A stretch of DNA of 64,000 nt from Polytrichum commune. Taxonomy: Eukaryota; Streptophyta; Polytrichopsida; Polytrichales; Polytrichaceae. The DNA lies in contig OX485805.1 of NCBI GenBank assembly GCA_950295325.1, positions 8,680,501 through 8,744,500 of the forward strand, given 5' to 3'. Of this stretch, positions 2,440 to 25,230 are shown in pieces. The notes beneath the pieces were generated by a model. It ran no database searches and was not told the origin of the DNA. It saw only the letters and a program-made list of their open reading frames with translations. The stretch's first letter is position 1. The number at the start of each line of letters is the position of its first letter. The translations under genes and the position numbers were made by a program.

Positions 2440-3330
2440 AAGGTTTGTCAAGCTCCGCGAACTTGAGCACGGGCGGCGAAGAGAACTTGGTCTTAAGCTC
2501 CCCAAAGACTCGTGACAAACATCATCTCACTCTTGGGATAGCCATTTCTTCCACAAGTCGCACAAGGTGGGACAACCATCGAGCTTCATGCTCTCATATG
2601 CCATGGCCATCCATCTTGCCTCAACATCCGCCAATGGTAAAGTCACTCGCCCCCGTATGCACCTCAAAAGGTTTGTCAAACTCCGCGAACTTGAGCACGG
2701 GCGGCGAAGAGAACTTGCTCTTAAGCTTCTCAAAGACTTGGTGGCAAGGCTCATCCCACTCTTGGGATAGCCATTTCTTTCACAAGTCGCACAAGGTTTG
2801 ACAACCTTTAAGCTTAATGCTCCCATATACAATGGGCATCCATCTTGGATCAACATCCGCCAATGGTAAAGTTACTCGCCCCCGTATGCACCTCAAAAGG
2901 TTTGTCAAATTTCGCAAACTTGAGCACGGGCGGCGAAGAAAACTTGGTCTTAAGCTCCTTAAAGACTTGGTGGCAAAGCTCATCCCACTTTTGGGATAGC
3001 CATTTCTTGCATAAGTTGGACAAGGTCGGACAACCATCGAGATTCATGCTCTTATATGCAATGGCCATCCATTTTGCCTCAACATCCGCCAATGCTAAAG
3101 TCACTCGCCCCCGTATGCACCTCAAAAGGTTTGTCAAAGTCCGCGAACTTAAGCACGGGCGGCGAAGAGAACTTGTTTTTGAGCCCCCCAAAGGCTTGGT
3201 GACAAGGCTCATCCCACTCTTGGGATAGCCATTTTCCTCAATAAGTTGAATAAGGTCCTAGCAACCTTAGAAAACTCTCGAATGAAGTTGTGGTACTAAT
3301 TGGCTAGGCCAACAAATGACCTAAGCCATT
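2440..3330 (-). pseudogene. RT-thumb/RNase H junction with four tandem module copies (copy I)
   Basis: After a thumb-like segment (GLANQYHNFIREFSK type, near 3250-3330) the same module of roughly 215-235 bp recurs four times. Each copy encodes W-x-[ED]-x-x-C-H, then SSPPVLKF and FDKPFEVHTGAS, the start of a gypsy RNase H domain. Ordinary elements have one. The RT palm with its Y-x-D-D motif is absent between the protease remnant and this block. Copy II has the same four-fold arrangement (36380-37210). Confidence 0.75.
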
Positions 3331-3603
3331 TTTGAATGAAGGGCCAACTGTCCTTTTGGATTGCCTTGACATTCTTCATGTTCGTCCACCAACTTCATTT
3401 ATCACCACATACCTCAAGAGCTCAATCTCTCGTTGAGCAAAGTTATTTTTCACTTCTTGGCGGTAATTTTTTTTTTTTGGGCAACACATTGGTGAATACA
3501 TCCTTGTATTTCACCAACATCACACCAATGTTGTTTGGGGGAGGCCCATCTTTCCTAGCCTCCCCATACGTTCCTTGGAGTTGCTCCAATTGAACCACGA
3601 CCA

Positions 3604-3948
3604 TTATGTTTTTTTTTTTTTTTTTATTCGGTCCATTAAGACCAAATTCAACTTAGGTCCTCCTACCATAGGAGTCATTGTTAATTTGAACTTCAATTCT
3701 TTGCCATTATGACACATCATAATGCACCGCAAGCACACCGGCTTGCACCTCACATCTATCATGTGAGTTTCAAAGAAGGCGGCCTTCACAATGACATGCA
3801 TTTTATCTATTTCACTTGGTGTGAAATTTTGACAAAAATCCAATGTCCCACATTGCAAGGTTACATGCATTGCGGCCTCCTTTGTCTCATGCGGTTTGCC
3901 CTTTCCAAACCGCACCTTGGTGGGCTTGCCCGCTCTACCAATCGGCAA
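3604..3948 (-). pseudogene. Protease-region remnant (retropepsin-like) of copy I
   Basis: An open stretch of about 114 codons matches the layout of the gypsy aspartic-protease region: a cysteine segment (QCGTLDFC), a hydrophobic strand ending AAFFETHMIDV, then a TPMVGGPKLNLV tail. Functional plant gypsy proteins have an Asp near the hydrophobic strand and an upstream D-[ST]-G; neither is visible. It ends in a lysine run encoded by an A/T tract at 3610-3626. Copy II carries the same region at 35647-35913. Confidence 0.6.
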
Positions 3949-3999
3949 GCCCCAACTCCCTTATGAGTTTTGGGCTCAAGAAGGCATGGCTTGCCTCTT

Positions 4000-4860
4000 T
4001 GTCAACCCATTAGACGTTTGTCCCATTCATTTGAGCCTCAAGATATAAAATAGTTGGCCTTGGCTTAAAGCTACTAGCCTTGGCCACAAAACCATCGTCT
4101 AACATTTGGTCCTCGGCAACACCATGAGTTTGGCTTGGTCCACAAGGCCAACTTTTAACACTCCGTCCGTGGCACAAATATGATCTAGCTTGGTACCACC
4201 AAACCACCTTCTCACATTTTGTCCACGGCACGAGCTAGCATGATTTGCCTTGGTATAATGGGCCAAACTACTTGCGCTCATTTCCTTGGGGCCTCTTTCG
4301 GCTAAACCCACTTTGTGGTGATGTGCCGTCCAACTTCTTCTTAGGAACATCGGCTTCAATGCTCTTCAAATCTTTATGATTCGCACTACGTCCTCAAGAT
4401 GCTTTGGGGTCTTGAACATGGTTTTCACCACCCGCTTTTGAAACCCACCTAAACTGATGCATTTCTTAGAAAGCTCGTCCATCCTAGATGTACCATTCAT
4501 TTGGGTGTGAAATTCGCACATATACGCCTTAAGAGACCCCGCGTGCCTCATGTGCCCCAAGTTCATTTCAACATCACCACCTTCTAAGCATTTCGAATTG
4601 AAATTTCAATCCAACATTAATGCCCTCCAAGGTTTTGGGTGCATTCGGTATTCTAGCCCCTGAATACTTTTCGAGGTTTGCGGGAGCCTTTTCAAAGCAC
4701 TCCTCCATTTTCCTCACCGAATCCACCCTCATGCCCACCATTGTCATTAGAACCAATGGTATGGTCAAATTCCATTTACACATGATCTTTGTTCCAATTT
4801 GAGCCTCACAACCTTTTGGAAACCCCGGGTCACCATCATAACCCGCTTATATGATAGCCA
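4000..4860 (-). pseudogene. gag-like remnant of chromovirus copy I
   Basis: Short open segments at 4574-4783 and 4366-4566 hold a helical stretch with repeated VRK...ECFEKAP-type residues in the position expected for gag, just downstream of the primer-binding site. I see no CCHC zinc knuckle. Copy II has the matching segment at 34872-35300. The call rests on position and shared sequence; the domain itself is too decayed to recognise alone. Confidence 0.5.
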
Positions 4861-4898
4861 TGCTTCCCTCAAAGTGCTAGCTCAAATATTGGAACCCT

Positions 4899-4910
4899 AC
4901 TCTGATACCA
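4899..4910 (-). promoter_or_regulatory. Primer-binding site, initiator tRNA-Met type
   Basis: The minus strand reads TGGTATCAGAGT two bases inside the 5' LTR. Plant Ty3/gypsy and Ty1/copia elements primed by initiator tRNA-Met carry TGGTATCAGAGC, so one base differs here. Copy II has the exact form. Confidence 0.85.
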
Positions 4911-4912
4911 AG

Positions 4913-5886
4913 TGTCGCAACCCTTGCTAGCCCCCCTTGACAATCTTGCCAATTTTCAATTCTAGCAAAGGTTACGAGTGCTAACCATTCGCATTCCGCC
5001 ATGCTAATGATTAGCTCCTCTTACCCCGGACCTTATAGTTCATAGGAGGGAACCAACCCTCCTACTTTGCTTTCGGGACTCACCCCTTAATTGGTAACCC
5101 ATTCCTAGATGTGGACTTCCATCCATGGAAGTCCAATCCCATGTTGATCATCGCGTTGCCGGAGCAACACTACAACAACCCGAACCATACTAGGCAACTA
5201 TGGCCTCACAATGGGCCAATGCCCATGGAGGCCTTGCCGTTTGGCCTCGGGTGGGTGAGGCCACACCACCTCACCCATATAAGCCTCTAGGACTTCACGC
5301 GGGGCCCCTACCCCACCGTCAACCAACCTCTTGTCTCTCTACCAAGAGTTGGGGCCAAGTGGACATTTTCCTTTAGCTGCTGGGCCTAGAACCCCCCCAG
5401 CAGCTTCAGACCATCATAACTTCCTTGTATGATGTCTGATCATAACAACCAACCGCTCCATCTTCATCTACGCTTCACGTAGATGCCGATGGACTCCTCA
5501 CTTGCCCCGTTTGGGCAAGTTATGAGGACGTTATGCCTGTTTGAAGCTTGGCAGTCCCGGGAGTCACTCCCAGGCACTGCTGCACCAGGGCGCTGTCCCG
5601 GGACAGCGCCCCACTCAAATGGCCATAACTCCTAGCTCACACCTCCGATTGAGGTGATCTTGAGCATTCTAGAATCACCACGCTATGAGCTACGCATAGC
5701 TCATGGCCTTACCCTCATGCTTCCTAGTCTCAGTGGATGGGAGGCGTTCCCAACGCCCGGGGCCCTCACCCACACTAGGATCACTTGGGCCCTCTCACCA
5801 ATGGCGCCACAAGTCCCGGGTGTCACTCCGGGGTCCCCCTTGTGCCCATGGTGTTTCGGGCACTCCTCATGGAGAGGTGCGCGACA
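4913..5886 (-). repeat. 5' LTR of chromovirus copy I
   Basis: This 974-bp block starts TGTCGCGCACC and ends GGGTTGCGACA when read on the minus strand. It matches the LTRs at 33857-34831, 39871-40850 and 53417-54389 along its length. Immediately inside it lies the primer-binding site. The flank at 5887 reads GGGTC; the partner target duplication would be outside the window. The LTR contains several hairpins, among them a 24-nt perfect palindrome near 5586-5609 with half-site GGGCGCTGTCCC. Confidence 0.93.
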
Positions 5887-6212
5887 GGGTCGAAAGCCTC
5901 GGAGAATTGGTGCATGAACATATGCACGTTCTGCACTGCGGAGTTCTCTAGAATAACGTCAACGTGCTCCCCGAGAGCTTGGACGGAAGCAACCTCCCAT
6001 CCCGTCAGCGTTGCCCAGGTGTGTTGCTCGTGGGTCCCCACTTTCACCACGAACAAGAGCTTGTATTGGGAGGCTTTCACAACCTGAACGGACCACGCAA
6101 GAACGATCCCGTCCTTTGGGACGTATGAGTCGTCCTGTGGAGTTTCGTACTCCTCCCAAAGGTGGTCTGGGGCGAGCATGAACCACCTCTCTCCATGTCT
6201 CTTTTTAGTGGC
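5887..6212 (-). pseudogene. Unidentified gene, 5' coding part, cut by the LTR at 5886
   Basis: Starting at ATG 6212, about 108 codons run to the LTR insertion: a basic start (MATKKRHGERW), then a mixed alpha/beta-looking segment with VLAWSVQVVKASQYKLLF and HTWATLTGWEV. A splice acceptor (CTTACAG) directly abuts the ATG, so the upstream sequence is probably a 5'-UTR intron, and that intron contains the palindrome array at 6240-6730. The rest of the gene would lie beyond copy I, outside the window. I do not recognise the family. The association with a TTTGGGTCG palindrome array suggests it belonged to another giant element. Confidence 0.55.
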
Positions 6213-7230: not shown

Positions 7231-7872
7231 TGTCGCGCACCTCTCCATGAGGAGTGCCCGAAACACCATGGGCACAAGGGGGACCCCGGAGTGATACCCG
7301 GGACTTGTGGCGCCGTTGGTGAGAGGGCCCAAGTGATCCTAGTGTGGGTGAGGGCCCCGAGCGTTGGGAACGCCTCCCACCCACGGAGACTAGGAGGCAT
7401 GAGGGTAAGGGCATGAGCTATGCGTAGCTCATGGCGTGGTGATTCTAGAATGCTCAAGATCACCTCAAGCGGAGGTGGGAGCTAGGAGTTATGGCCATTT
7501 GAGTGGGGCGCTGTCCCGGGACAGCGCCCTGCTACAGCAGTGCCTGGGAGTGATTCCCGGGACTGCCAAGGTTCAAACAGGCATAACTTCCTCAAGACTT
7601 GCTCAAATGGGGCAAGTGAGGAGTCCATCGGCATCTACGTGAAGCGTAGATGAAGATGGAGTGGTTGGTTGTTATGATCAGACATCATACAAGGAAGTTA
7701 TGATGGTCTGAAGCTGCTGGGGGGGTTCTAGGCCCAGCAGCTAAAGGAAAATGTCCACTTGGCCCCAACTCTTGGTAGAGAGACAAGAGGTTGGTTGACG
7801 GTGGGGTAGGGGCCCCGCGTAAAGTCCTAGAGGCTTATATGGGTGAGGTGGTGTGGCCTCACCCACCCGAGG
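7231..7872 (+). repeat. Split solo LTR, 5' piece (TSD ACCCT)
   Basis: The first 642 bp of a chromovirus LTR begin TGTCGCGCACC at 7231 and stop abruptly at CACCCGAGG. The rest of the LTR lies at 24538-24877. The pair is bounded by a perfect 5-bp duplication ACCCT (7226-7230 and 24878-24882), so it was a solo LTR before element A landed in it. Joined length is about 973 bp, equal to the intact LTRs here. Confidence 0.93.
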
Positions 7873-7894
7873 GGAAACTCAAGTATGTGAGCGT

Positions 7895-7925
<31 letters not shown>

Positions 7926-7935
7926 TTGGAGAGCG
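7873..7935 (+). repeat. Left terminal inverted repeat of element A
   Basis: It begins GGAAACTCAAGTATGTGAGC and continues into four or five AGAGCGG units. The reverse complement of 24470-24537 reads GGGGACGACACTTGTATGTG and continues into the same units. The first 11-14 bases match imperfectly; the next roughly 40 match well. The heptamer run makes a subterminal minisatellite shared by both ends. Confidence 0.88.
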
Positions 7936-8879
7936 GAAAATTTAGATTTTGTTGGGTAATTTTAGGAGAAGCAGTGCCTATTTCCGTGGAATTAGAGATA
8001 GTTTGAATTCTATATTTGGAAAGGTACCCCCATTCCCGTGGACATAATAACCCAGAATTGTTTGAGAAACCAACGGATCCTATAGGCGTGGAAGATTGCA
8101 TTTGTTATCAAACATCTTATAGTATATGTTTTCAAATGTATCATATTAAATTAGGGCTGACGTCACCAAATTGAAATCAAAATACCATACACAAAATATT
8201 TTATTGGTCAACAAAATGTAGCCAACCTCAAGACTTACAAAAATGGGTAGTTAGTTAAAATAACTATATACTCTAGTTTAGGGCCATCTACACCCTATCT
8301 GCCGGGCATGTCCAATATGGGTAAAATGATCCAAAGAACATGCCATAAAACTCCGTCGCACCATAACAGCCTTCCAATTAAGTCCTTAGCTTAGCCAAAG
8401 ACCTCAAAGACAAATCCCCCAAGTCCAACCTTAGAATCCTCTTGGAAATTTTTGAGGTGACGTGCCGGCTCTTTGAGAACAACATGAATTTCAATTTAAA
8501 AAGTTTGACGAGGTTATGTTCGCGTGCCAAACAAAACTTCCAATTGCTATATAGCAATTGGGATTGGAAGACGGCCAATGTGATTAGTGTGCACAACCAT
8601 AAAATAAACCATCCACACTAATAGAAAGTATGGTCCCCCTATAACTAAGATCTCACACTAAGAGCCGAGAGCTAGATTGTTTTGTGACTAGAAGTTAAGA
8701 GATCCGAACGATGAAGAAAAAATAAAGAATGCAATGCGGGTTGACATATGAATATGAAATAATGGAAAGAAAGAATGAAACTTGCGCCGGATATCAAAAA
8801 TAAAACCAACACACAACTTTTATTAAAGCCGGATAACAACAACAAACGGAGTTATAATCTCCAAAACCAAAATGATAAA
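7936..8879. other. Left subterminal non-coding region of element A
   Basis: About 940 AT-rich bases between the terminal repeat and the 3' end of the methyltransferase-like gene. I see no convincing coding sequence. It presumably includes that gene's 3' UTR. Confidence 0.6.
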
Positions 8880-11800
8880 CTAAGGGCTTGGAGAACATTC
8901 CCTATCACTCTCCTCACCCTCATTTGCTTCTAACAAGAAAAGATTTCGTGTTCCACGCGAGAAATGACGAACGCGAGGAGGAGATGGGGACTCCGCCTTC
9001 GCAAAACAATCCGCCATTGCACTAGCATACGGGGGAAGCTCAAACGGCTTCGGAGGACTTGAAAACATGTCTCGACAAATGACTGCGACCTCCGCTGGCT
9101 CTCTAAACACCCAAGCAAAAGGATTAGAAACATGATGACACTAGAAAATGAGAATTTGAAATAAAAGCAAACATGGCAAAATATAGAAAGCAAACTTACG
9201 CACAAAGAAATCCGAATGCCCTCTTGGTCATCTTTTGAGGAGGATCAAAGATAGATGTAGACGGTGCGGCAACTGAGCGAGATATACGCGCAGGCTGGGG
9301 ATCGCGCATGGGGAGTAGGAGTGAATTGAAAATGACGGGGTCACTCTCAAGGGCCACAATATGCCGCTCAAGGGAGCGACATGCTGTAATCGAACCACCT
9401 AAAGCAAAGAGAGGTAAAATGTTAGTATGAAAACTAGTCAAGGAAAAATAATGGAAAATTCAAAGTAAGGATGAAGTTGAAAAAGAAGGCGTACCTACAC
9501 CACACTGCCAGTCCATAATAACATCATTCTTGTCGGTGAGAGTAGCGAGAAGGATGGAAAAAAAAACAGGATGCTTCTCACAGGCACCTCGCCAAGGTAC
9601 CCCATCACTGCGCATCGTCTGGCTTGTCTCATCGGTGAAGGTATTCAACCATCCATCTCGTTGGAGGTTGTAACCATACTCTTGTATGGCCTCCTCCCGC
9701 ACTCTAAGAACGGAGTTAACACGAACAAGAACTTTGATGTTGAACTTCCGAGTCTGCAACAATGAAAATGAAATTGAATTGAAATGAAATGGAATTGAAA
9801 TTGAATTGAAATTGAAATGATAAGCAATACGGAAGGGGAAGAGAGGGAGACTTGCTTACCACTCCAGAGGGAACAACGGGAGATTGGAGGTCTAAATCAT
9901 TCATTCCAAACCAATCTTCCGCGACGTAGAAGTCATAAGTGTGTGCCCAATCGAAAATACTCCTAGAAACACTGGCACTCGCACAATGGGCAAGAACAAG
10001 GACACCATGATCATAGAGGTTAGATTTCGCAAATGCAAAAAGACACTCATAGTATGATTCATGGAGCTTGTTCCAAGCAGGAACATCGGTGGAGATGTTC
10101 GGCACCGGCAAATTTTCGGGAATGTCGGCGAAGAGCAAATCGAGGCCCTTGTGAGTTGTAGTCGAGGTGTTCACACGGGAACGACCTGCCCCAACCTGCA
10201 ATTGAAACTTCATGAGAAAACAAGAAGGAAAGAAATAAACAAAGCAAAGGAAAAAAAATTAAGAATTGACGAAGGCAAGTATACAAACCTTGGCAATGAA
10301 CTCTTGGATGCGGGTATATGCGGGGAGGGGACCTCCGGCAACCTCGGAATCCAGCATTAGTTGAACCATGTCCACATTTTCGATGAGGGTAAGCGTGTTA
10401 GTGGCATCCGAAGAGGTGGCACTGGTATCCAAGAGAGCGGCCTTCCTCTTGCGAGGCAAAGAGAGGAGAGAAGTGCCACTATGAGATGGAGTGGCAAGAG
10501 ATTGTGGATGAAATGCAGATGGAGTAACAGAAGGGGCAAGAGAGGGAGCAACGGAGGGAGCGATAGATGGACTGTGTGGAAGGGTGGGTGGCTCAACCGG
10601 GGTCTTAGAAGCAGACCGAGTGAGAATTTGGGAAGATGCTTGAGTGGCGGTCTTCTTTGCTTTGCCCTTTCTCCTTGGTGCCTTAGGAGGAGGAGGGGGA
10701 AGCTCAACGATGTCAGGGTCCTCCAAGGTAACAATATTATTATCCAGAGCACTACCCACAAGGCTAGCAAACAAAGCCTTCTCTTCCCCGGGGACAAATC
10801 CTGCAGCACAATCCAAGTACCATCCACCACCCTGCAAGTGCAATTCGGAAAACTTGTTTGTTTGCGCGGTCGTATACACGCAGAGGCTAGAAAAAATATT
10901 CACCCAGTCCGAGAGGTAGTCCGGCAAGGAAGATGAGGCCAATGCATTCTTCACAACCAATTCTCTCATGATATACCTACATGACAAAACAAGAATGTAA
11001 GAAAACCAACAAAACGAGCAAGAAATGACATTAAGGAGAGGTGCAAAGTGGAGGATAGATGTATTACCGATAGGCTACACGCTTGATAGCGAGAGCCCCC
11101 TCCTCGAACTCCAAGAAATTATCACCTTTGGCAAATGCGATGTCAGGCTTATCGCCGAGATAAGGCTTGAAGGCCTTGTCCCAAAGGACAATCCGCCAAT
11201 GATCAACGTACTCACGAGGGCGCAAGATAGTTTCTGATGCGTCCCAATCAATGTCGACGGAGAGGCTCTCCTCTAAGGTCTCAATTTCAACCGCGACTTC
11301 TTTCTCCAACTGCAGAGAAGGAGATGATTAGATATGAGATAAATGGAATAGAGGAAAATGAAAATGAAGAAGGCCGAGGAATGGATTTACTTGAGCCTAG
11401 AAGGACGCCTTGTGTAGCCAGTCGTCCAAAGCCCTCTCCCTCATAGGCTTGTCGACGGGGAACTTGTTATCTAACCTTTCACGAAGGGGGGCGTTCCACC
11501 AGTGAAGCCACTTAGCTTTGAACGAAGCTTCGACCGGGCATGTGACAATTTTTTGCAATTTTTCAATTGTCATGTCCGTCGAAGAGAACTCATTAAAATG
11601 ACGGTCAATCTGTGCACAAAATAAAAATGATTTGAGTTCAAAAGAATAATAGAGTTGAAGAGTGATTTGGATGAATTGCGTTCAAGAGTGATTTGAGTTC
11701 AAAAGAGTACCTCATGAAATAAATCCTTTCCATTGTCAGGGTGTGCAACGGATATGTACTTCTCAAAAGAACGGGCCCGAATACTTTTGATTGTCCTCTC

Positions 11801-14800
11801 CTGGGCCTTGGTCATAACATTCCAAATCTCAGTGGCCGACCTCTCCGCAACGGGTGTGGTCTCACGGTAATGCCTCACTGCAAGGTCTGCTTGAGCCGAA
11901 ATGTCTCTCTGCAAGAAATGACCTTGTGAGTTCATATAATCGGTATGGAAATTATCTATGTTGGAAGCTCTAAATGATTGAATGCATAAAACCATACCTT
12001 GTAAAGAAACTTAACGAACACATCCGCGGTCAAGGTGTACCAAGTTGGGCGACTCTCCTTTATCTTCTCGCATGCTTTGTAGTCAGATGGCGATATAAGA
12101 TCCTTGAAGGTGGACAACTCTAACCTCCCAAAAGTGCGGATTCGAAGGAGCTTGGCCGGAATGTTTGCCTTGACATAATCATGCTCGGTTGACCTGAGAA
12201 AAAATATGTGAGGAACGTAAGCTGAAAAGAATGGAAAAGAATTGAAACAAAAATGAAAAATGAATGAAAAAAATGAATGAGCTTACCAATTAATGTCGCT
12301 CATGGCATTGAGGAATATACCGGTGTATCCTCTAGGGTCAACAACAATGCAATCCACCGAGATATGCCAACTCTTGTCATCGGCGTGGTGGTTATTGATG
12401 TGTCTCCACCAAGCGGTGAGACGATGATTGCCTTCCCAGACGAAGAACATCTTTCCGGCGAAATGTGCAAGATCCGGATCCTCCTTGAGCTTGGCGTCAA
12501 ATTCTGCGGAGGCCTCTTGCCAGAGAGGGCTCCAAGAGGCCATAATGCCAGGGGGAATGGGGAGGTCCACGGGAACGTCGTTGAAAGAAGACACGTAAAG
12601 AACCCGATCACCCTCTCGGTATCCCATTACAAATTCACATTCCAAGCGCTGCACCTCAACCTCACTGATAGGACGGACGAGAGGGAGGGCTCTCAAGCGG
12701 CATAAAGGAATGGATAAGCGGGACTTACATGTTGGCTTAATCCGAAGGCGTTGGATAACACCAATGGAGTCCTCCTTTTGTGATTTCCGAAGCTCAAGCT
12801 CACACACCACGGGATCCGTGTCGGCAACTGCTTGAACGGCATCTTCGCTCATTGCGAGAGCCTAACAAAAACACAAACAATAAAACCATGCTTAGAAAGC
12901 TAGAACTCAAAAAACTTGCTTAACAAATTATTCAACAACTATCCAACTCACCTCTACTTGTAATGGGCCCTGCGAATTGAGACTCTCAACCTGCACAGCT
13001 TCAACTTCAACCGCGGGGGCCGCAAGAACAACATCCTCTCCAGATTGGGGTTGCGATTGCGCAACCTGTGAAGAGTCCATATCCTAAGAACATGGAGAAA
13101 ATGAGAATTTCACAAAGAAAAGTCAATAACTTCGTAACTATAAAGAAACAAATCCTCACAAAAACAATACAAGGCCGAGAGCAAACTACAAATGGAAATG
13201 GCCGAATGCTAAGTCAAGTGGTGAACTCTAGCACTAACTTACCTACGAATGAGAGGCCTCGGATCCGAGGCCTCTTTTCCTACCTCCTCCTTATGCACTA
13301 CCCAAAAGAAAAAGGCCGAGAGAAATCTTATGTGAACATAGCAGTTTGACTTTTCAAGCACATACATTGTCTCCAAAATGAGGCCTCGGATCCGAGGCCT
13401 CTTCACAAACCTTCTACTCATGTAGTACCCAAAACAAGAAGGCCGAGAGCAATCTTACACGAACATAACATTTTGATTTTTCTAGCATAAAATTGACACA
13501 AACATGAGGCCTCGGATCCGAGGCCTCTTCCCAAAACACATACTTATTCACTTCCCAAAACAAGAAGGCCGAGAGGATTCGAAAATGAACATAAGATTTT
13601 CATTTTTCAAGCACATACCTTGACACAAAAATGAGGCCTCGGATCCGAGGCCTCTTCACAAAGTACCTACTTATGCACTACCCAAAACAAGAGGGCCAAG
13701 CGCATTCAAAAATGAACATAACATTTTAACTTTTCATGCACATACCTTGACACAAAAATGAGGCCTCGGATCCGAGGCCTCTTCCGAATGCCCCTCCTTA
13801 TGAAATACATACTACAGAAAATGGCCGAGAGAATTAAAAAATGAACCTAACATTTTCATTCTTCAAGCACACAACCTGACTCAAAAATGAGGCCTCGGAT
13901 CCGAGGCCTCTTCCAAATGCCCCTCCTTGATGATTTTAAAACCTAACCAATTTACTTGTTACATGGCTCACGGGTGTTCACCCGTGAGGTTCACATTTGA
14001 TGATGTTCCAGGGGAGGTCACTCCATTGCCAAGTTGCATCACCAAAATGGGTCAAAATTTTCTCAAATGTTTTTGGGACGTAGATATACATGATATCTAT
14101 TACGGAATAAAATATCATGACCAAATTTGATGACCATATTTTTCTAGAAAACATACCATTTCTACCTAGAATGACGCAGAATTCAACTAAAACAATTACT
14201 AGAAAAAATGAAGATGACAAAAAATTTCAAAAAAATATACAAAAGATATAATCAATAGTTATGAATATAGAGAAAAAAAATCATAATTTTTAAAAATATT
14301 TGACATGGAGACATCTCCCCGTGATGATGCTAAATCCTACCCAAGTTACCTGTTACATGGCCCACGGGTGTTCACCCGTGGGGCACACATTTGATGATGT
14401 TAAAACCTAACCAAATTACTTGTTACATGGCCCACGGGTGTTCACCCGTGGGGCACAAGGCAGAGAGCAAGGAACCAAAAAACCAGGAAAGTTGACATTC
14501 TATTAGTTTGAGAAATCAAGAACCTCACCTCTCTCAAAACCCTACCTTTCACATACTCAAACTTACACAAATAGGAGGCTTCGGATCCGAGGCCTCTTCC
14601 CCTAGCTGGTTCTTATGCACTACAGAAAACAAGACAAGACCGAGAGCAATTGATGTGCACATAACATTTTGATTTTGCAAGCACAAACCTACCCACAAAT
14701 AAGAGGCCTCGGATCCGAGGCCTCTTCCTATGGCTCCCACTTATGCACTACACAATAGAAGAAATGGCTGATAGCAAGGAATCAAGAAAGCAAGAAAGTT

Positions 14801-17800
14801 GACATTCCATTAGTTTGAGAAATCAAGAACCTCGCCTCTCTCAAAACCCTACCTCTCACATACTCAAACTTACACAAATATGAGGCCTCGGATCCGAGGC
14901 CTCTTCCCCTAGCTGCTTCTTATGCACTACACAAAACAAGACAAGGCCGAGAGCAATTGATGTGCACATAACATTTTGATTTTTCAAGCACAAACCTACC
15001 CACAAATAAGAGGCCTCGGATCCGAGGCCTCTTCCTATGGCTCCCACTTATGCACTACACAATAGAAGAAATGGCCGATAGCAAGGAATCAAGAAAGCAA
15101 GAAAGTTGACATTCCATTAGTTTGAGAAATCAAGAACCTCGCCTCTCTCAAAACCCTACCTCTCACATACTCAAACTTACACAAACAAGAGGCCTCGGAT
15201 CCGAGGCCTCTTCACAAACCTCCTACTCATGTAGTACCCAAAACAAGAAGGCCGAGAGTAATCTTACACGAACATAACATTTTGATTTTTCTTAAATAAA
15301 ATTGACTCAAACATGAGGCCTCGGATCCGAGGCCTCTTCCCAAAACACATACTTATTCACTACCCAAAACAAGAAGGCCAAGAGCATTCAAAAATGAACA
15401 TGAGATTTTCATTTTTCAAGCACATACCTTGACACAAAAATGAGGCCTCGGATCCGAGGCCTCTTCACAAAGTACCTACTTATGCACTACCCAAAACAAG
15501 AAGGCCAAGAGCATTCAAAAATGAACATAAGATTTTCATTTTTCAAGCACATACCTTGACACAAAAATGAGGCCTCGGATCCGAGGCCTCTTCACAAAGT
15601 ACCTACTTATGCACTACCCAAAACAAGAAGGCCAAGACCATTCAAAAATGAACATAAGATTTTCATTTTTCAAGCACATACCTTGACACAAAAATGAGGC
15701 CTCGGATCCGAGGCCTCTTCCGAATGCCCCTCCTTATGAAATACATACTACAGAAAATGGCCGAGAGAATTCAAAAATGAACCTAACGTTTTGATTTTTC
15801 AAGCACAAACCTTGACACAAAAAAGAGGCCTCGGATCCGAGGCCTCTTCCCAAAGCTCCTACTTATGCACTTACCAAAACACATTTCCCCCCCCCCCCGC
15901 AGCTTCAGACCTCCATATCTTCCACGTGTGGTCTCCAAATCTAACAATCAACCACTCTTTCGTCATCTACGTGAAATGTAGATGCCGATGGACACCTCAC
16001 TTGCCCCATTTGGGCAAAAATCAAGGAAGTTATGCCTGTTTAAACATTCGCAGTCCCGGGAGCCACTCCCAGGGGACTGCTGATCGAGGGCACTAAAAGG
16101 AGGCCTCGGATCCGAGGCCTCATTTTCAAACTAGTGTACATACTCAAAAACAAGCAAAGTGCCTCATTCATACAAGCTATACGTTGAATCAAAAAACCTC
16201 AAGTGGCCTCGGCTGAGAGGCCTCGGATCCGAGGGCTCACACACAAAGTAATTTACGTACTCCAAACCAACCATAGTGCCTCATCCGTACACTAGTTTTG
16301 GAACACATAAAAGAGGCCTCGGATCCGAGGCCTCTTCTCCTAGCTTCTACATATGCACTTAACAAAACACATTTCCCCCCCCCGGCAGCTTCAGACCTCC
16401 ATATCTTCCACGTGTGGTCTCCGAATCTAACAATCAACCACTCTATCGTCATCTACGTGAAATGTAGATGCCGATGGACACCTCACTTGCCCCATTTGGG
16501 CAAAAATCAAGGAAGTTATGCCTGTTTGAACATTCGCAGTCCCGGGAGCCACTCCCTGGGGACTGCTGATCGAGGGCACTAAAAGGAGGCCTCGGATCCG
16601 AGGCCTCATTTTCAAACTAGTTTACATACTCAAAAACAAGCAAAGTGCCTCATTCATACAAGCTATACGTTGAATCAAAAAACCTCAAGTGGCCTCGGCC
16701 GAGAGGCCTCGGATCCGAGGCCTTACACACAAACTAGTTTACATACTCAAAACCAACCAAAGTGCCTCTTCCGTACACTTGTTTTGGAACACATAAGAGA
16801 GGCCTCGGATCCGAGGCCTCATTCACAAACTAGTTTACATACTCAAAACAAACCAAAGTGCCTCATCCGTACACATGTTTTGGAACACATAAAAGAGGCC
16901 TCGGATCCGAGGCCTCATTCACAAACTAGTTTACATCCTCAAAAACAAGCAAAGTGCCTCATTCATACAAGTTATACTTTGAATCAAAAAACCTCAAGTG
17001 GCCTCGGCCGAGAGGCCTCGGATCCGAGGCCTTACACACAAACTAGTTTACATACTCAAAACCAACCAAAGTGCCTCTTCCGTACACTTGTTTTGGAACA
17101 CATAAGAGAGGCCTCGGATCCGAGGCCTCATTCACAAACTAGTTTACATACTCAAAACAAACCAAAGTGCCTCATCCGTACACATGTTTTGGAACACATA
17201 AAAGAGGCCTCGGATCCGAGGCCTCATTCACAAACTAGTTTACATCCTCAAAAACAAGCAAAGTGCCTCATTCATACAAGTTATACTTTGAATCAAAAAA
17301 CCTCAAGTGGCCTCGGCCGAGAGGCCTCGGATCCGAGGCCTTACACACAAACTAGTTTACATACTCAAAACCAACCAAAGTGCCTCTTCCGTACACTTGT
17401 TTTGGAACACATAAAAGAGGCCTCGGATCCGAGGCCTCATTCACAAACTAGTTTACATACTCAAAACCAACCAAAGTGCCTCTTCTCTACACTTGTTTTG
17501 GAACACATAAAAGAGGCCTCGGATCCGAGGCCTCATTCACAAACTAGTTTACATCCTCAAAAACAAGCAAAGTGCCTCATTCATACAAGTTATACTTTGA
17601 ATCAAAAAACCTCAAGTGGCCTCGGCCGAGAGGCCTCGGATCCGAGGCCTCACACACAAACTAGTTTACATACTCAGAACCAACCAAAGTGCCTCATAAA
17701 GACATGCCTAACCAAGTTACTTGTTACATGGCCCACGGGCGTTCGCCCGTGGGGCACAAGGCAGAGAGCAAGGAATCAAAAATGGAAGAAAGTTGACATT

Positions 17801-19391
17801 CCATTAGTTTGAGAAATCAAGAACCTCGCCTCTCTCAAAACCCTACCTCTCACATACTCAAACTTACACAAATATGAGGCCTCGGATCCGAGGCCTCTTG
17901 CCCTAGCTCGTTCTTGTGCACTACACAAAACAAGACAAGGCCGAGAGCAATTGATGTGCACATAACATTTTGATTTTTCAAGCACAAACCTACCCACAAA
18001 TAAGAGGCCTCGGATCCGAGGCCTCTTCCTATGGCTCCCACTTATGCACTACACAATAGAAGAAATGGCCGAGAGCAAGGAATCAAGAAAGCAAGAAAGT
18101 TGACATTCTATTAGGTTGAGAAATCAAGAACCTCACCTCCCTCAAAACCCTACCTCTCACATACTCAAACTTACACAAATATGAGGCCTCGGATCCGAGG
18201 CCTCTTGCCCTAGCTCGTTCTTGTGCACTACACAAAACGAGACAAGGCCGAGAGCAACATGATGTGCACATAACCTTTTGATTTTTCAAGCACAAACATA
18301 CCTTTCCTAACATGTTCCTAAACCCAAATCAAGACAAGGCCGAAAGCAAGTCAAGCTGATATTCCAAATACTATGAGAAATCAAGGTGATAGAAAGCAAA
18401 AACGTTGGCAAACATAGCTTGGCCGAGATCCCGACACCTTACCAGAATTTGGAGTATGCCCTCCACTGAAGCCCCTATATTGGCGCCACTATCTTCCGAG
18501 GTCCCGTCCTCTGTCGGCGATATTGGAGTGCTTCTCGAATCTCCGAGGTTTACTTGCGCCATTCCTCTCCCGCGGCCACGCCCTCGCCTTGATGTTTGTT
18601 GTGTTCCGCCCGCCTTGCTTCGCAGAAATCTTGAAGCAGGGGTCACAACATCCACACTTAGGGTTTCTGCGCATGGGTCTCCTCCTTCAGCTCTTTCGCG
18701 GCCTCCCAACAAATTTGATTTCAGATCTTCCTTTGCCGCTTTCCTCTTGGACGCCTTCATTTTTTCTCTTGCTTGAATCGTTGGTTGTCCCGACATCGGT
18801 TCTCGCTCTTCTAACGCCTTCTCAATTTGTTGTGCTACCTCCTTGTTGTCTTCTTCATAGATATTTCCACTATCTCCACTCCCCCCCTCTTCCTATATTT
18901 AAGATAAAACAATGTTTATAACAATGATGACAAACCATAATATCTAAAAGAAAAGTTGTTTCACAGTTGAATATGTTCTACCATTTTCATTATGTGCTCA
19001 AACAACTGAATATATGGAGAACCCGAAGAATACGTACGACACTTGTAGAGTTTGTCTCTTCGCGTGAGTCCTCTTGGATGCTGTCGTTTCCCAACTCCTC
19101 CACTTCTGCCATTGGTTGCGCTTTACTTCCGTCCGCCTCTTCTACAATCGGTGATAAATGAAAAGGCCGAATCCCACAGTCTAACCTCCACGAAGGTTTC
19201 CGCAGGTCCTTTATGCTTTGGCTCAAATCCTCGGGCGTCCCACGGCCCTCAATTGGCGCTTTCCTTGCCTGTGACTTTTGTGTCCTCACTGTCTTTCTCT
19301 TCTTATCAGTGTAATGTGTAGACGATCGCCTCCTCTTCTTTTTCTTAGATGGTTCCGTTGTCGGAGGTTGTGAATTGCCTATTTCCTTCAT
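8880..19391 (-). CDS. ParB-like / beta-class DNA methyltransferase-like protein, 13 exons (one in-frame TAG)
   Basis: I built this from 13 exons: 19391-19038, 18892-18443, 13083-12952, 12861-12287, 12193-11998, 11908-11711, 11609-11391, 11309-11068, 10976-10289, 10195-9860, 9753-9495, 9398-9200, 9102-8880. All introns are GT-AG, phases agree, and the total is 4071 nt (1356 codons plus stop). Residues 1-262 are disordered, with a KKKKRRR nuclear-signal-like run and an RGRGRGRG tract. Residues about 360-480 have IPLCRLRALPLVRP then VWEGNHRLTAW, resembling the ParB/Srx fold. Exon 9 is a Pro/Ser linker with PRRKGKAKK. About 1035-1240 look like a beta-class methyltransferase: DLLFADIPENLP at the D-P-P-Y site, then KHP, then DWQCGVGGS and ALESD as the AdoMet site. 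Exon 7 holds a TAG (11397-11399, codon 706) where the homologue at 51231 has Trp. Joining exons 1-2 to the rest across the palindrome intron is inference from phase and repeated layout; they could be a separate gene. No homology search was possible. Confidence 0.7.
9768..9825. repeat. ATTGAA/AATG simple repeat in intron 10
   Basis: A purine-rich low-complexity run of AATTGAAATG-type units lies within the intron between exons 10 and 11 of the methyltransferase-like gene. Confidence 0.75.
13966..13990. repeat. Minor palindrome CTCACGGGTG-TT-CACCCGTGAG and three relatives
   Basis: A different 22-nt inverted repeat sits within the array: 10-bp arms around TT. Relatives lie near 14363-14385, 14432-14455 and 17730-17752. 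Arms read CTCACGGGTG here, CCCACGGGTG at 14363 and 14432, and CCCACGGGCG at 17730, with the right arm changed to match in every case. Confidence 0.9.
15891..16098 (-). repeat. LTR fragment inside palindrome array 1
   Basis: About 205 bp from the middle of the chromovirus LTR, closest to the diverged solo LTR at 1049-1989 (same CAGCTTCAGACC... and GGGAGCCACTCCCAGG phrases, same strand), lies within the array preceded by a C run. A second near-identical copy is at 16374-16580. Confidence 0.85.
16374..16580 (-). repeat. Second LTR fragment inside palindrome array 1
   Basis: Near-duplicate of 15891-16098 with only a few differences, also followed by GGGCACTAAAAGGAGGCC and the next palindrome. 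It was therefore probably copied together with array units and not inserted twice. Confidence 0.85.
16671..17640. repeat. 309-bp higher-order repeat in array 1
   Basis: Blocks starting TGAATCAAAAAACCTC recur at 16671, 16980, 17289 and 17598, exactly 309 bp apart. Each block contains three main palindromes plus one CCTCGGCCGAGAGG variant. Because 309 is a multiple of 3, one frame stays open for 380 codons; it is a by-product of the period. Confidence 0.92.
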
Positions 19392-19710
19392 GTGTTCAAC
19401 CCTCCCGCAATTCAGACCTATTCGCTCTATTTCCTTTCCACAACCTCACCACATCAAACTCACACATTGGAAAGAAAGTGAGCAATCGCATTCTTCTCAG
19501 TATATAATTGCAATACCTCCCGATGGGAGGCGCGCTTTACTATCTGACAACCATCTTTATAATTAGGGGTATTTTTTTTTAGGATGCCTGACAGTTTTGT
19601 CTCCTTCCTGATATTCATGCGTATTTGTTTATAACTTCATCGTCATCACCATTCTCCTTCTCTATGCATCTTTGCATCTTTGTTCCTTCACGTTTGCTTT
19701 CTCTGCCTTC
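19392..19710. promoter_or_regulatory. Bidirectional promoter region, element A
   Basis: Only 319 bp separate the start codons of the methyltransferase-like gene (-) and the transposase (+). The segment holds AGTATATAATTG near 19498-19509 and TTTATAATTAGG near 19555-19566 as possible TATA elements. Assignment to one direction is not possible from sequence alone. Confidence 0.45.
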
Positions 19711-22700
19711 ATGGCTTCCACCTCAATTCTTCCTCCCGTCTCTGAGATGGCCGAACTTCGTTCACATGGCATCGGGGTCCCTATTATATTCCCCATTGGT
19801 GCACAAGGTATTGTTGTTGTCTCGGAGCTTCATCTTAGCATTAGGTTCTCTTTGAAAGCTAGTACAATATGGGTAGAGCGTGAGATCTACCATCCTGATA
19901 CTGGATTGCTCGTTCATACCTTCCATGAGACCTCCAAGATAACTGACAATGGCAATGTAGTGTGGGAGCTTGGCGCGGGAAAGTATAGGGTTTGTGGCTG
20001 GCCAGATTCTCAGATGGAAGTGTCAACAGAAATCCTTCCTCCTCTTCGATCATCCACTGTTGCCTTTAGCACACCCCCCGTAATAAGCGTCAAGACCGAG
20101 CCTGGTGTAGACAACGTTATAGACTTGTCTGATTCTTCGAGTGAAGATGTACCAGTGTATAAGGTTGCTGTCCATGATTCCCCTCATTTGTTTCCCTTTG
20201 CATCCTACATAACGCCTTCTCCATCTAGCTCTGTCCCTTCAACTCCTTCGGTCCCTACGTCTAAACCTCCTCAAACTATTGTTCAATGTCTTCGTCGTCT
20301 TGGCTCTATGCCCGGTAGTAAGAACGTCCTCAAGAAAATAGATTACGATAAAATCAAAATCCAAGAAGTTAATCACCTTCCCCCTCGTTTCGATGGCACC
20401 CAGTTATTTGTCCTCCCTGCAGCAGAAGTCTCTTCATCTCAAACCAGGGCCAAGTCGTTGGACGGCATGGACAAGCAATATGATGGCCATGTTTGGACTA
20501 AGACTCAAACCACCAACATTACAAACGACGTTGGCCTTGCATTTCGTTCCTCTACCTGTGTTGGCCATCTCCAATGCCAAAACCCGAGTTGTGATTACCT
20601 TCAACGCGCCCATCGTACCTCTAAGGTCAATGACACAGAATTTGAAGGTTTCACTAAAGATCCTTTCCGTCTCTCTGGCATTGTGCCATCCGGATCTACT
20701 CTTGTCTGCAGGATCTGTAAAGAGCCTCCCAAATGCATTGCACTATGCGAGGCCAAAATCTTCTACGTCCATGGGAAGGAGTCATCCCAAAGAGCCTGCA
20801 TTCATCTCGGTTCTCATCAACATCCAGTGAAGGTTGGAGACTGCAGAGACAGTCGGAAGCGTATCAATGCACTTCTTGAGGAGCACGTTGAACGTACGCC
20901 TCAAGCCACCCATAGCAAGATCGTCCTTGAAGCTAGCAAGGACATTGTTGGTGAGTTTCTCCTTTCTGGCGATAATGACACACACCGTCTCTTCTCTTTA
21001 AAAGAGCTTGAACCTGTTTTTGAGAGCTGTAGAGAGTTGAATTCCCCAAACCTTCGCTCTAAGGTTACCTCTTTCAAATATTTGCGGAGGTTTGGTGTTA
21101 TGGATGGCATCGCAAAGCTCCGAGGCGTTAGCAATTGGGCCTACGTCCAACGGAACCAATTCCCAGGACAAGGTGACGATACAGACAAGGTGTTCGTCTT
21201 CAAGATGTCGGAGGTTGGTCCTGGAAGTGGAGTGGATTTGGTTCGTCGGATGCAACCGGGTGGGGACCTGGAGAACGCGTGGATGATGTCCGATCACGTG
21301 AAACGGGTCAAAGGGTGGACCACCATGGCCGCTCATGTGTACGATGGGACTTATCAACGGGTCATGACCATTTCATGTTGTGATTTCCAATCGGAGGATA
21401 AGGATGCCCAAGTTCTCTTCTGGCAGAACCTCAACCACGTCATGGCCCGACACGGTATCCCACATCCAAACTTTATAGGCTTCATGGCGGACAGTGCCCA
21501 AGCCAATTGGAACGCTGTTCGCATTGTATATGGTTCGGGGGATCCCAAAGTTCCAATGGAGGGTCGTGAGCGCACTTGTTTTTTCCATTGGAAACAATCG
21601 CTCGAAAAACATACGAAATCGTATATAAAGCATGAGTTACAAGACCAACATAGACATCTTTGCCTTCAATATCGAAATGCGTCATCTATGGAAGAGGCTG
21701 AGACTAGGTACCTAGCTATCAAGGCTTGGTGGGCGTCATCGAATTGTACAAGTGAGGACGGTCTCAAGCATCTTCAGCTCTGGCTTGCTTTTTGGCACTT
21801 CCGCTACCTTCAATGGGGTGGTTTCATGGAACTGGTACATCTCCTTCATAATTCATTATTGGTTTTTCTTGGATTCGATTTCCTCTCTCTGTACATTTAT
21901 ATTAATACTTGATTTCTCCAATCAGGAAAAGGTTTTAACCCAAGACCAATTGGCCGAGATGCCGTCGTGCAATCTTGCGGAGTCCGTCCACAACAAATGG
22001 CTTCAAGCCTCCGGCAACAAGGGTGGAGATCTATACGTGGCTACGGTTGACGACTACATTCGCGCCTTCTTACAAGTTGTTGCATACTACCAGTTCCTTA
22101 AAGGTGGAATTGGCGGAGATGGTCCAAGCAAAGAAGAACTAAAGCTCAGGGGTGCTCAACGTCGAGCTCAGCGTACTGGCGACCCCACAGTGTTGCAGAA
22201 GGTCTTGCTTGACATGTCCGGTGGGGAAGAATTTTGCACTCGCGATCCACACCTTGAGGGCGCCGAGGTGTTTGGATCGCAGAAGCGAAGATCAGACACT
22301 CCAATTGGTGATGATGGCGAGACCCACCGCCCCGATACCGTGAACTTCTCTCGCCCTCCCCCCGGTAAGCGTGTCACTCGATCTCAACCAGAAACACTAC
22401 CCACTATCATTGAGGAGTCTTCCCCCTCTGTACAAGAGGTTCAAGTGCCTTCACCTGCAGGACTTGGTTTCCAGCGTGTCACTGCCGTGCAAGAAACCAA
22501 AGTAGATGTCTCTCTTTGGCATATTGCCCGCATACCCTATACGTCTGGGAAGTCTTGTTGGGCTAATCATGCGGGCACGAAGAAGAAGTGCACCGCAAGA
22601 ATCGTCACTAATAATAAGAGCGTCCCTGCGCCGACCTACACCGGTATGTGGCATCATTACAAACTCCAATCTATGAAGCGCACGGACTTTGTCTTTTGCC

Positions 22701-23383
22701 CCGACGACATTGAGCGTTGCGTGAAGGGCCCTCGTCGGAAATGGGTCATGCCGTTCTCTGCTCATGACCAGAAGCCTCCTATTCCCCCAATCTGGCCCGT
22801 GAAGATTGGTACCAACCTCACCCGCTCGGATATCTTCGCCCTTGAGAACGCAGGTTTTCAACTCCCACCAAAGGAGCGCATCACACCGACTCAACTCTTC
22901 ACCAACTCTGCTCCCCCGCTGGATATGTCTGGAATCCGTGTTCCAGAAAACCCCGACATGATCCCTCCGACAAGATTGTCCAAGCTTGTTCGGCGATCCA
23001 GTAGCGCACCTTCGGCAAAGCAGAGGCAGATGGTGGCCTCTGCTGAAGCTATGCATGGTACCGTTATGAAGTTAACTATGATCCCTCAACCGGGATTTGG
23101 TTGCATTATCACACTGCAGTCCAAATCAGAACCCCAACCACCGATCTACCAAGTGACAGTCAGTTCTCTTCCAGAGTGCAACTGCGCATTTTTCTTGGAT
23201 ATGATTTCCAAGTTCAGCCGCAAACGAAATTCTTATTTGAATTGTAAGCATTTGTATTACATTTTCATCAAGGTTTCTAATTTGGATGCGGAAGTGAATT
23301 TGTTCATTCACGCCCCGACATTTAGCTTCAACGAAGTCAAACTCATCCTCGAAGGGGGTCTTTTGACAAAGTCTACTTCTTAG
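19711..23383 (+). CDS. MULE-type transposase with SWIM zinc finger, element A
   Basis: Two exons, 19711-21834 and 21926-23383, are joined across a 91-bp GT-AG intron in frame, giving about 1193 residues. The start at 19711 (ATGGCT) has a good plant context; alignment with the homologue at 62553 begins at the later ATG 19747. An N-terminal Cys/His region (C-x2-C then RACIHLGSHQHPV, residues about 333-371) looks like a MULE DNA-binding zinc finger. The catalytic core shows YDGTYQRVMTISCC (about 545), FMADSAQANW (about 590) and ERTCFFHW (about 618), the usual MULE DDE surroundings. The C-terminus has a SWIM signature, CNC...CKHLYY (about 1125-1150). It probably mobilises element A. I see no stop or frameshift, so it may be active. 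Confidence 0.88.
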
Positions 23384-23467
23384 GATTTATCTCAGCCTAG
23401 CAGTACTTTGGGCTATGATATATGTGTCCATTTCTGGACCTCTTGTGAAGCAATAATTGATTGATAT

Positions 23468-23473
23468 AATAAA
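23468..23473 (+). terminator. AATAAA-type polyadenylation signal, transposase A
   Basis: AATAAA lies 85 bp past the transposase stop codon and 72 bp before the 3' end of the convergent small gene. Confidence 0.4.
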
Positions 23474-23544
23474 GGTATAATCTCAATGATTATTTTTATT
23501 TGCTTCAAAATTTTGTATTACAATGCTTCCTATGTCTATCAACT

Positions 23545-24012
23545 CTATTTCCGTTTTGCATACTTCTTAGATGATTGCGAGGGAGGTGGACCCGGTCGAA
23601 GCAAATCCATATAAGAAATTGTCTTATCTCTCTTTCGATCCTTCAGCGGAAGATGATGCGGCGTCATTCCTCTCATCCGTTCGCGAAATGAAAGAGACTT
23701 CGAAGATTCCCCTTCCACCTTCACCTCCTCCTCCGTTTCGTTCGATTTGTCTTCATCTAAATCAACATCCTTCTCCGGCACATCTTCCTGCCTTTTTTCC
23801 TTTTTCTCATATTGTTTTTGCTCCTCCTGCACCCTCCACCTCCATGCTTGTGTAGACTGCGAAAATGGAGTCAGCTCGTAGTCATCACTACTTTGATTTC
23901 CAGCAGCAAACTCAAATTCCGGCGATGGATTAAATGGAATATGAGGATCTCCTAGACTTCTAATTTCCTTCTCCCATCCTAATCCAGCAAACATGTCTCT
24001 CTCATCTCCCAT
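23545..24012 (-). CDS. Small charged protein of element A, function unknown
   Basis: A single open frame of about 155 codons from ATG 24012 (MGDERDMFAGLGWEKEIRSL). The middle (QEEQKQYEKKEKR, then an Asp/Glu-rich stretch) is predicted to be helical or disordered. The C-terminus is basic (KDRKRDKT, KKYAKRK) with a PGPPP turn. It is convergent with the transposase, 161 bp apart, inside the right terminal repeat. It may be an accessory protein of the element, but I do not recognise the family and no second copy is visible in the window. Confidence 0.55.
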   Translation of the reverse strand: MGDERDMFAGLGWEKEIRSLGDPHIPFNPSPEFEFAAGNQSSDDYELTPFSQSTQAWRWRVQEEQKQYEKKEKRQEDVPEKDVDLDEDKSNETEEEVKVEGESSKSLSFRERMRGMTPHHLPLKDRKRDKTISYMDLLRPGPPPSQSSKKYAKRK

Positions 24013-24469
24013 TGTGTGCAACTGTATATACAATTATGTTGGGTATGAGTCCAATTTATAATCTATTCGGCCACAAACGATAATTGCTAAAGTCCAAGCT
24101 ATAGAATAGACTCACATATAAGACAAAGAGAAAAGTGATGAATAAAAACCAAGCAAGTTTATTATTTTGATTCCTTTGTATATTGATTGACTCATTCTTC
24201 AATTATACCAATCTCAAAAAATCCATTTTCATTGATTTTTCTTGTAGTCATCATTGGTTTTAATAATTCAACCACCTCACGGTTTCCAAACTTAATGAGA
24301 CCATTTCAAATTCAGGGTTTTTATTTTATTTTATGACCTATACATCCCACGGAAATAGGTCCAATTTTTTTACTATTATTGTCAAATTCTGGAATATTCT
24401 TGGTATATTCTTGGCTATTTTGGAATATCCTAATTTTAGTTTGACAAGTTTACTATTTTTATTTCCTCT

Positions 24470-24537
24470 ACGCTCTCCGCTCTCCAAATCTCCGCTCTCC
24501 GCTCTCCGCTCTACGCTCACATACAAGTGTCGTCCCC
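24470..24537 (-). repeat. Right terminal inverted repeat of element A
   Basis: This is the inverted partner of 7873-7935, with CTCTCCGC units followed by CGCTCACATACAAG and the terminus before the target duplication at 24538. The exact last base is uncertain by up to two bases because of a C run. Confidence 0.88.
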
Positions 24538-24877
24538 CACCCGAGGCCGAACGGCAAGGCCTCCATGGGCATTGGCCCATTGTGAGGCCATAGTTGCCTA
24601 GTATGGTTCGGGTTGTTGTAGTGTTGCTCCGGCAATGCGATGATCAACATGGGATTGGACTTCCATGGATGGAAGTCCACATCTAGGAATGGGTTACCGA
24701 TTAAGGGGTGAGTCCCGAAAGCAAAGTAGGAGGGTTGGTTCCCTCCTATGAACTATAAGGTCCGGGGTAGGAGGAGCTAATCATTAGCATGGCGGAATGC
24801 GAATGGTTAGCGCTCGTAACCTTTGCTCGGATTGAAAATTGGCAAGATTGTTAAGGGACCTAGCAAGGGTTGCGACA
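24538..24877 (+). repeat. Split solo LTR, 3' piece
   Basis: Continues the LTR broken at 7872, beginning with the duplicated CACCCGAGG and ending GGGTTGCGACA at 24877, followed by the TSD copy ACCCT. Confidence 0.93.
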
Positions 24878-24882
24878 ACCCT

Positions 24883-25230
24883 ACTACAATCACTCCTAAA
24901 CCCTTACAAGAAGAAGAGAGAATGAGAGATGGCGAGAAGAATGAGAGAAGAGAGAATGAGAGTATGAGAGAATGAGAGAATGAGAGAATGAGTGTAAGTC
25001 GAAAGGCGCCGCTTCCAGTCCTAACCAACAAACACACTCTAAAATCACTCAATGCTTGTATTTTTAAACAAAACAACACTCCTAAACAACATACACACCC
25101 TGAAATCACTCAATGCGCATATTTCTACACAAAAACACTTCCCCAACCCGTAAACACACTCTACAATCACTCCTAAACCCTTACAAGAAGAAGAGAGAAT
25201 GAGAGAAGAGGGTTACAAGAATCAGAGAGG
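24883..25230. repeat. ~62-bp tandem repeats and GAGAGAATGA microsatellite
   Basis: The tract seen at 7020-7230 resumes here (ACTCTAAAATCACTCAATGC-type units), interrupted by a purine-rich run of GAGAGAATGA units at 24914-24990 and again near 25180-25250. No coding sequence seen. Confidence 0.75.

Follow-up and report, generated by a model that had tools for sequence, protein, structure and literature searches.

The 64,000-nucleotide stretch of Polytrichum commune DNA analysed here (the window; C3:8680501-8744500 of a scanned genome of 408 Mb in 64 contigs, with nearly all the sequence in seven contigs of 42 to 78 Mb) contains a giant Mutator-like (MULE-type) transposon, element A, in which a transposase gene adjoins a spliced gene that combines a ParB-type domain with a beta-class DNA methyltransferase core altered in its catalytic motif. 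Arrays of TCGGNNCCGA palindromes lie in the large intron of this gene or immediately upstream of ParB exons. In view of the two domain types and of the precedent of the VANC proteins of Arabidopsis, we therefore propose that the protein acts as a self-recognition system of this giant MULE-type family; we infer both the binding and its outcome, and put the probability of this reading at about 0.5.

The gene had been described by the first-pass annotation as 13 phase-consistent exons, and all of them were found, on the minus strand from 19391 to 8880, with GT/AG junctions that keep the reading phase; its coordinates and domain residue ranges fit as well. Across 11 copies of the gene (that of the window and 10 others), all 10 donors of exons 3-13 are GT and all 10 acceptors AG. 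The window has a second ParB gene, belonging to a C-type element, which is 35% identical to that of element A across 492 amino acids and has its introns in the same phase and at corresponding places. The ratio of nonsynonymous to synonymous substitution rates (Ka/Ks) of the ParB exon lies at 0.09-0.31 in 18 of the 19 locus pairs with Ks <1.6, the outlying pair having 0.50 at a Ks of 0.024; element A is in none of these pairs, its Ks to all other loci being higher. Judged by these rates, the ParB exon is under purifying selection between families. Because the splice borders hold in 11 copies, the C-type introns match and Ka/Ks is low, the gene is, as far as sequence can tell, conserved and not a product of chance, and chance exons are ruled out on the same grounds.

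Exon 7 of the window copy is itself interrupted by an in-frame TAG, at codon 437 of the model built from exons 3-13; the first-pass annotation did not mention it, and all 10 other copies lack it. All 13 exons are open in four of the 11 copies, namely L009, L013, L019 and L023, the last with a 27-bp in-frame deletion. The six remaining non-window copies have stops, a common 1-bp deletion in exon 11 (three copies), or 5' exons that are broken or were not found; L025 is open across exons 3-13, exons 1-2 not having been found there. The in-frame stops of element A (11391-11609) and of a third element, B (L029 1714-1716), both fall at tryptophan positions of their relatives, which is compatible with decay of a methylated cytosine on the opposite strand.

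The ParB/Srx-fold domain predicted from a G-N-H-R-L motif is supported on two sides. Indeed, GNHR, corresponding to the Box II GxxR, is present in all eight aligned ParB sequences, and the model of the C-type exon, to which exon 4 of element A is 40% identical, has the alpha-beta arrangement of the ParB/Srx fold; structure modelling thus shows a ParB-type fold in the protein of this gene. Pfam scans assigned no family to the ParB exons or to the whole protein, and a precomputed Pfam domain is found in none of 110 related proteins from public contigs. Profile comparison of the ParB exons gave a match to a PHROG ParB-like partition protein at E 0.18 only, a PDB sequence search with the ParB alignment returned 0 hits, and two scans each of genome contigs and viral contigs, looking for a prokaryotic or viral source close enough to be recognised, found no relative.

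The claim of a beta-class methyltransferase core with motifs in the order IV, X, I is borne out best by a sister copy of the C-type gene, L042, in which ParB and methyltransferase parts stand together in one locus. Its methyltransferase part scores 29.3 bits against PF01555, over the curated cut-off of 26.7, and its residues 38-221 are collinear with positions 33-215 of the family; the domain of element A itself reaches 12.6 bits only. A profile of eight sequences matched a DpnA-type adenine methyltransferase (5hek) at E 6.8e-5 and CcrM at E 0.077. Nearly the whole score is carried by the X-I part (24.4 bits to 5hek and 11.6 to CcrM); the motif IV stretch is in the right place, ahead of X-I, and aligns weakly (-2.0 and 1.9 bits), so that the beta-class order is found with this reservation on its first member. 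Each of the 57 database proteins that contain the stretch (116 scanned) has motif IV in the form [DN]-[IV]-P-[EK]-N-[LF]. Neither DPP[YFW] nor [DNS]PP[YFW] occurs in any of the 57, although the search pattern could also have matched DPP[YFW], and the second proline and the aromatic residue are absent throughout. The C-type sister has DLPEN, and overall DPPYN is replaced by [DN]-[ILV]-P-[EK]-N. The alignments thus show a methyltransferase core whose catalytic motif is altered. Since the motif I aspartate and GxG are retained in most of the 22 sequences in which they were located, the S-adenosylmethionine (SAM) pocket of the METHYLTRANSFERASE domain may persist; DxxxGxG and RHIVALE are likewise retained in most of the relatives that cover those stretches.

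The palindromes stand out from their surroundings. Inverted repeats of the size counted in element A (perfect palindromes of at least 12 bp) number 35 in its array and 23 in the C-type arrays, against 0.2-1.0 in Markov-shuffled arrays. Over 33 sites of the element A array the palindrome columns are 0.91-1.00 conserved, whereas 53 of the 58 flanking columns fall under 0.9, down to 0.30; the C-type array is less telling because its flanks are conserved too. The window has 63 TCGGNNCCGA sites, every one of them in the A or C-type arrays. The comparison was extended to 12 further loci, spread over the ParB subfamilies and taken from the list of ParB-exon matches with their arrays unseen. When the 256 palindromic cores with a 2-bp spacer are ranked in 14 arrays, TCGGNNCCGA comes first in nine (once tied) and second in two; L041 and L042, which cover the stretch downstream and contain 2 and 0 core sites, are left out of this count. 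Tandem or palindrome arrays lie directly upstream of the ParB exons in 14 of 14 cases, all sampled beside such exons. Among L030-L040 the flanks CTCGG, TTCGG and GTCGG switch between elements with similar ParB exons, the core staying constant.

Counts over the whole genome are 1,903 for the element A palindrome, 1,310 for an L032-type palindrome and 0 for the reversed controls. Among the 50 L032-type sites listed, 36 lie <5 kb from three listed ParB exons, on both sides; 13 of the other 14 form one cluster in C1 without a listed exon, and one is single. Among the 50 A-type sites listed, 18 are <10 kb from a listed copy of the element A gene, 29 fall in one cluster whose copy is outside the 40 listed, and three are scattered.

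Element A had been delimited by its terminal repeats, and its ends, inverted repeats and target-site duplication proved real. The inverted ends are imperfect and composed of AGAGCGG subrepeats. Target-site duplications of 9-11 bp flank all four copies with both ends located among the 11 examined, and the empty site is seen in three other copies of the target repeat (34470, 40484 and 54030). A 701-bp piece of the gene matches 40 scored places (the best 40 of 143 first-look candidates) at 96-100% identity, and the family has therefore probably spread recently. No MULE family of Pfam was hit by the transposases, and SWIM reached 13.0 bits in element B only, under its cut-off of 19.6. A third open frame of 162 amino acids from stop to stop, with a charged product, lies near the right end of element A (23545-24033, minus strand). 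Long inverted copies (1-5889 and 33857-38597), with retrotransposon pol-like fragments recognised by eye, occur in the window alongside a 785-bp repeat present several times, and the insertion site of element A is inside one of these repeats.

The location of one fused gene within a MULE-type element, adjoining the transposase, is likewise supported, and the gene is not confined to element A. The C-type gene is interrupted before its methyltransferase part, which is displaced and incomplete; a piece of it sits in L029 and is 89% identical to L042. The ParB exons of element B are just outside the window, in L029, and carry an in-frame stop of their own. Used as query against the whole genome, the C-type ParB exon had 1,119 candidate matches, of which the best 150 were scored, all at E <= 6.3e-36 and about 100 of them without a stop (hand count). 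The gene had been called cargo, a misleading label: because it recurs in the divergent A, B and C-type families, it looks like the standing second, non-transposase gene of a giant MULE-type transposon family rather than a captured passenger. Coordinates are collected in Table 1. A last short exon of the C-type model (51830-51857) was dropped, since the sister copy L042 continues differently.

Table 1. Positions in the window of element A, its genes and repeats, and of the related elements.
Feature	Positions	Strand	Basis or remark
Element A, MULE-type transposon, 16,663 bp	7873-24535		ends common to other copies
Left target-site duplication CCCACCCGAGG, 11 bp	7862-7872		sequence
Right target-site duplication CCCACCCGAGG, 11 bp	24536-24546		sequence
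Left terminal inverted repeat, AGAGCGG subrepeats	7873-7940	+	inner edge approximate, by eye
Right terminal inverted repeat	24470-24535	-	inner edge approximate, by eye
Transposase exon 1	19711-21834	+	46% identical to second transposase, 60334-62553
Transposase exon 2, SWIM-like CxC...CxH by eye	21926-23383	+	45% identical to 58722-60086
ParB-methyltransferase gene, exon 1, basic start, nuclear-localisation-like by eye	19038-19391	-	open, GT donor
Exon 2	18443-18892	-	AG/GT, phase 0
Intron 2 (5.4 kb), contains palindrome array	13084-18442	-	phase-0 junctions at either side
Exon 3	12952-13083	-	splice borders, C-type gene comparison
Exon 4, ParB/Srx-fold domain with GNHR	12287-12861	-	40% identical to C-type exon (the exon modelled)
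Exon 5	11998-12193	-	C-type gene and copy comparison
Exon 6	11711-11908	-	C-type gene and copy comparison
Exon 7, in-frame TAG in window copy only (of 11)	11391-11609	-	copy comparison
Exon 8	11068-11309	-	C-type gene and copy comparison
Exon 9, proline/serine-rich linker	10289-10976	-	C-type gene and copy comparison
Exon 10, methyltransferase motif IV region FADIPENL	9860-10195	-	relatives, profile alignment
Exon 11, methyltransferase motifs X and I, MDWQCGVG	9495-9753	-	relatives, profile alignment
Exon 12, methyltransferase core continued, ACRSLERHIVALESD	9200-9398	-	relatives
Exon 13 and stop codon	8880-9102	-	C-type gene and copy comparison
Element A array, 32 perfect palindromes, core CTCGGATCCGAG	13252-18204		28 contain the 22-mer GAGGCCTCGGATCCGAGGCCTC
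C-type arrays, 28 perfect GTCGGATCCGAC palindromes	40982-54995		either side of C-type ParB exons
C-type ParB gene (second in window)	49828-51763	+	exons 49828-50555, 50636-50828, 50912-51145, 51231-51452, 51537-51763
Element B	57838-64000		left end by eye; extends past window
Element B transposase	58722-60086 and 60334-62553	-	45-46% identical to A transposase
Element B basic 5' exon	near 63043-63357	+	divergent orientation to transposase
Element B palindromes	63670-63818		sequence

ParB loads at palindromic parS sites, and many beta-class methyltransferases read palindromes. Because the palindromes persist while their surroundings change, a homodimeric protein that recognises them would be the simplest account of the arrays. 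In the self-recognition that we propose, the ParB domain would bind nucleotide and the protein would accumulate or spread along the array, as ParB does at parS, while the methyltransferase domain, which has a glycine-rich SAM-binding loop but lacks DPP[YFW], would serve as a site-recognition or SAM-sensing module rather than a normal DNA methylase. The resulting protein coat would tag the element as self, most likely sustaining its activity against silencing or aiding its transposition, by analogy with the self-marking of VANDAL elements by VANC proteins. A more specific version is possible but doubtful: a eukaryotic counterpart of ParB-parS, in which nucleotide-gated ParB-fold clamps would be loaded at TCGGNNCCGA arrays and spread across each transposon, a dead methyltransferase would read the site, and the outcome would be anti-silencing self-recognition by a large element family of one plant genome.

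Several observations weigh against self-recognition through palindromes. The TCGGNNCCGA core is absent from three of the 14 arrays, those of B, L037 and L038. The B array has GTCGNNCGAC and GCGTTAACGC instead, and those of L037 and L038 show the half-site CCGAGAGG in direct form only, with 35 and 18 copies, or roughly one per 75-bp unit; L034, whose ParB exon is 95% identical to the L037/L038 type, carries this half-site as a palindrome. The ParB exons of L031, L036, L039 and L040 are 82-92% identical, yet their palindrome flanks differ. Arrays were sought only beside ParB exons, and the 14 arrays represent about six ParB clades and are not independent. The domain after the ParB fold is modelled poorly (predicted local distance difference test, pLDDT, blocks of 38-58 in the model of P0006), and no helix-turn-helix is shown. 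A DUF7869 gene (28383-32725, Pfam E 6.2e-40) itself has a 79-bp tandem array ahead of it, made up of GTTTGGGTCGNNCGACCCAAAC palindromes, and tblastn found no relative of the ParB or methyltransferase parts in 24536-40800. Finally, some other ParB domains work as nucleases that nick without specificity or as nucleoside triphosphatases (NTPases), and neither role would need a palindrome (the parts of PMC5512222 consulted). The GTTTGGGTCGNNCGACCCAAAC palindrome is also seen at 6607, 6703, 60177, 60209 and 60241; the B transposase intron (60087-60333) holds three, the short A transposase intron none.

The array beside the DUF7869 gene fits an alternative in which the transposase or a host factor binds the arrays, leaving the ParB-methyltransferase protein another job, the transposase being the other gene common to elements A and B. 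The terminal repeats consist of AGAGCGG and not of TCGG half-sites, and the arrays are directly upstream of ParB exons in 14 cases (sampled only there), which makes this alternative rather unlikely. An active methyltransferase that modifies the element at its palindromes would agree with a beta-class core over the Pfam cut-off in L042, with the retained DxxxGxG and RHIVALE, and with the palindromic sites of many such enzymes; it is improbable, as motif IV, itself weakly aligned, is altered in all 57 proteins and in the C-type sister, with no DPP[YFW]. Of the two roles suggested by the first-pass annotation, the palindrome arrays lend strong, if indirect, support to binding of the element's repeats, while the writing of methylation is not supported.

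The arrays could also reflect satellite-like turnover of tandem repeats with no binding function, the palindromes persisting through slippage or hairpins. The arrays are indeed tandem, and element A copies vary in length and alignment over them, but in element A unrelated repeat units have mainly the palindrome in common and one core is common to arrays of different families, so that we give this explanation little credence. Still less is given to a ParB domain that acts as a nicking nuclease or NTPase in transposition or DNA processing without reading palindromes: it has a precedent in the ParB part of an adenine methylase fusion, which nicks non-specifically, and in others that are nucleases or NTPases (PMC5512222, in part), but would leave the common palindrome core unexplained. 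Capture of a host gene as a Pack-MULE-type passenger accords with the tendency of MULEs to acquire host gene fragments (PMC6446971, in part); it is hardly credible for a gene that, with its arrays, recurs in the A, B and C-type families with common introns and a Ka/Ks of 0.09-0.31 in 18 of 19 pairs.

Whatever its function, a domain type of bacterial and phage DNA clamps, accompanied by candidate site arrays, is placed here in an abundant plant transposon. If the binding is true, the system would be a second solution to the problem that VANC proteins solve, that is, how a transposon recognises its own kind, and would provide a ready set of diverged protein-site pairs for studying changes in DNA specificity. 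It might also be a ParB-like loading system in a nucleus, of which, to our knowledge, none has been described. A search of titles and abstract openings in the open-access literature, preprints excluded, found, among the papers listed, no report of a ParB-methyltransferase gene in a eukaryotic transposon; 'plant' and 'transpos' occur 0 times in the main text of PMC12704722, and 'ParB' 0 times in the text consulted of PMC6446971.

The closest arrangement is that of VANDAL elements, according to the parts of PMC5735166 consulted: VANC proteins bind short motifs in tandem arrays, including those in their own introns, and de-silence elements of their own kind. As here, a MULE-type element carries an accessory gene, family-specific motif arrays lie in its non-coding parts including the introns of that gene, and the motifs differ among related families. 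Unlike here, the VANC motifs are not described as palindromes ('palindrom' occurs 0 times in that text); the likeness is one of arrangement, and the protein here has no Pfam family. With ParB-parS the gene shares a ParB fold adjoining arrays of palindromic sites, but the array is inside the gene, there is no plasmid, and no ParA was noticed, though no ParA search was made. With beta-class N6-adenine methyltransferases (DpnA-type 5hek, CcrM) it shares a collinear core and a glycine-rich loop, DPPY being replaced by [DN]-[ILV]-P-[EK]. Both domain types are joined in known proteins: phages have a ParB-CTPase fold fused to an N6_N4 methyltransferase (PMC12704722), and a ParB-methylase of B. cereus consists of a ParB domain and an adenine methylase (PMC5512222). 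In the parts of these sources consulted, such fusions resemble the present gene in that one protein unites these two domain types, frequently on a mobile element, and has the GxxR Box II. The fusions named there are bacterial, phage or archaeal, whereas here some 530 residues separate the two domains, motif IV is altered, and a nuclear DNA transposon encodes the fusion in a spliced gene.

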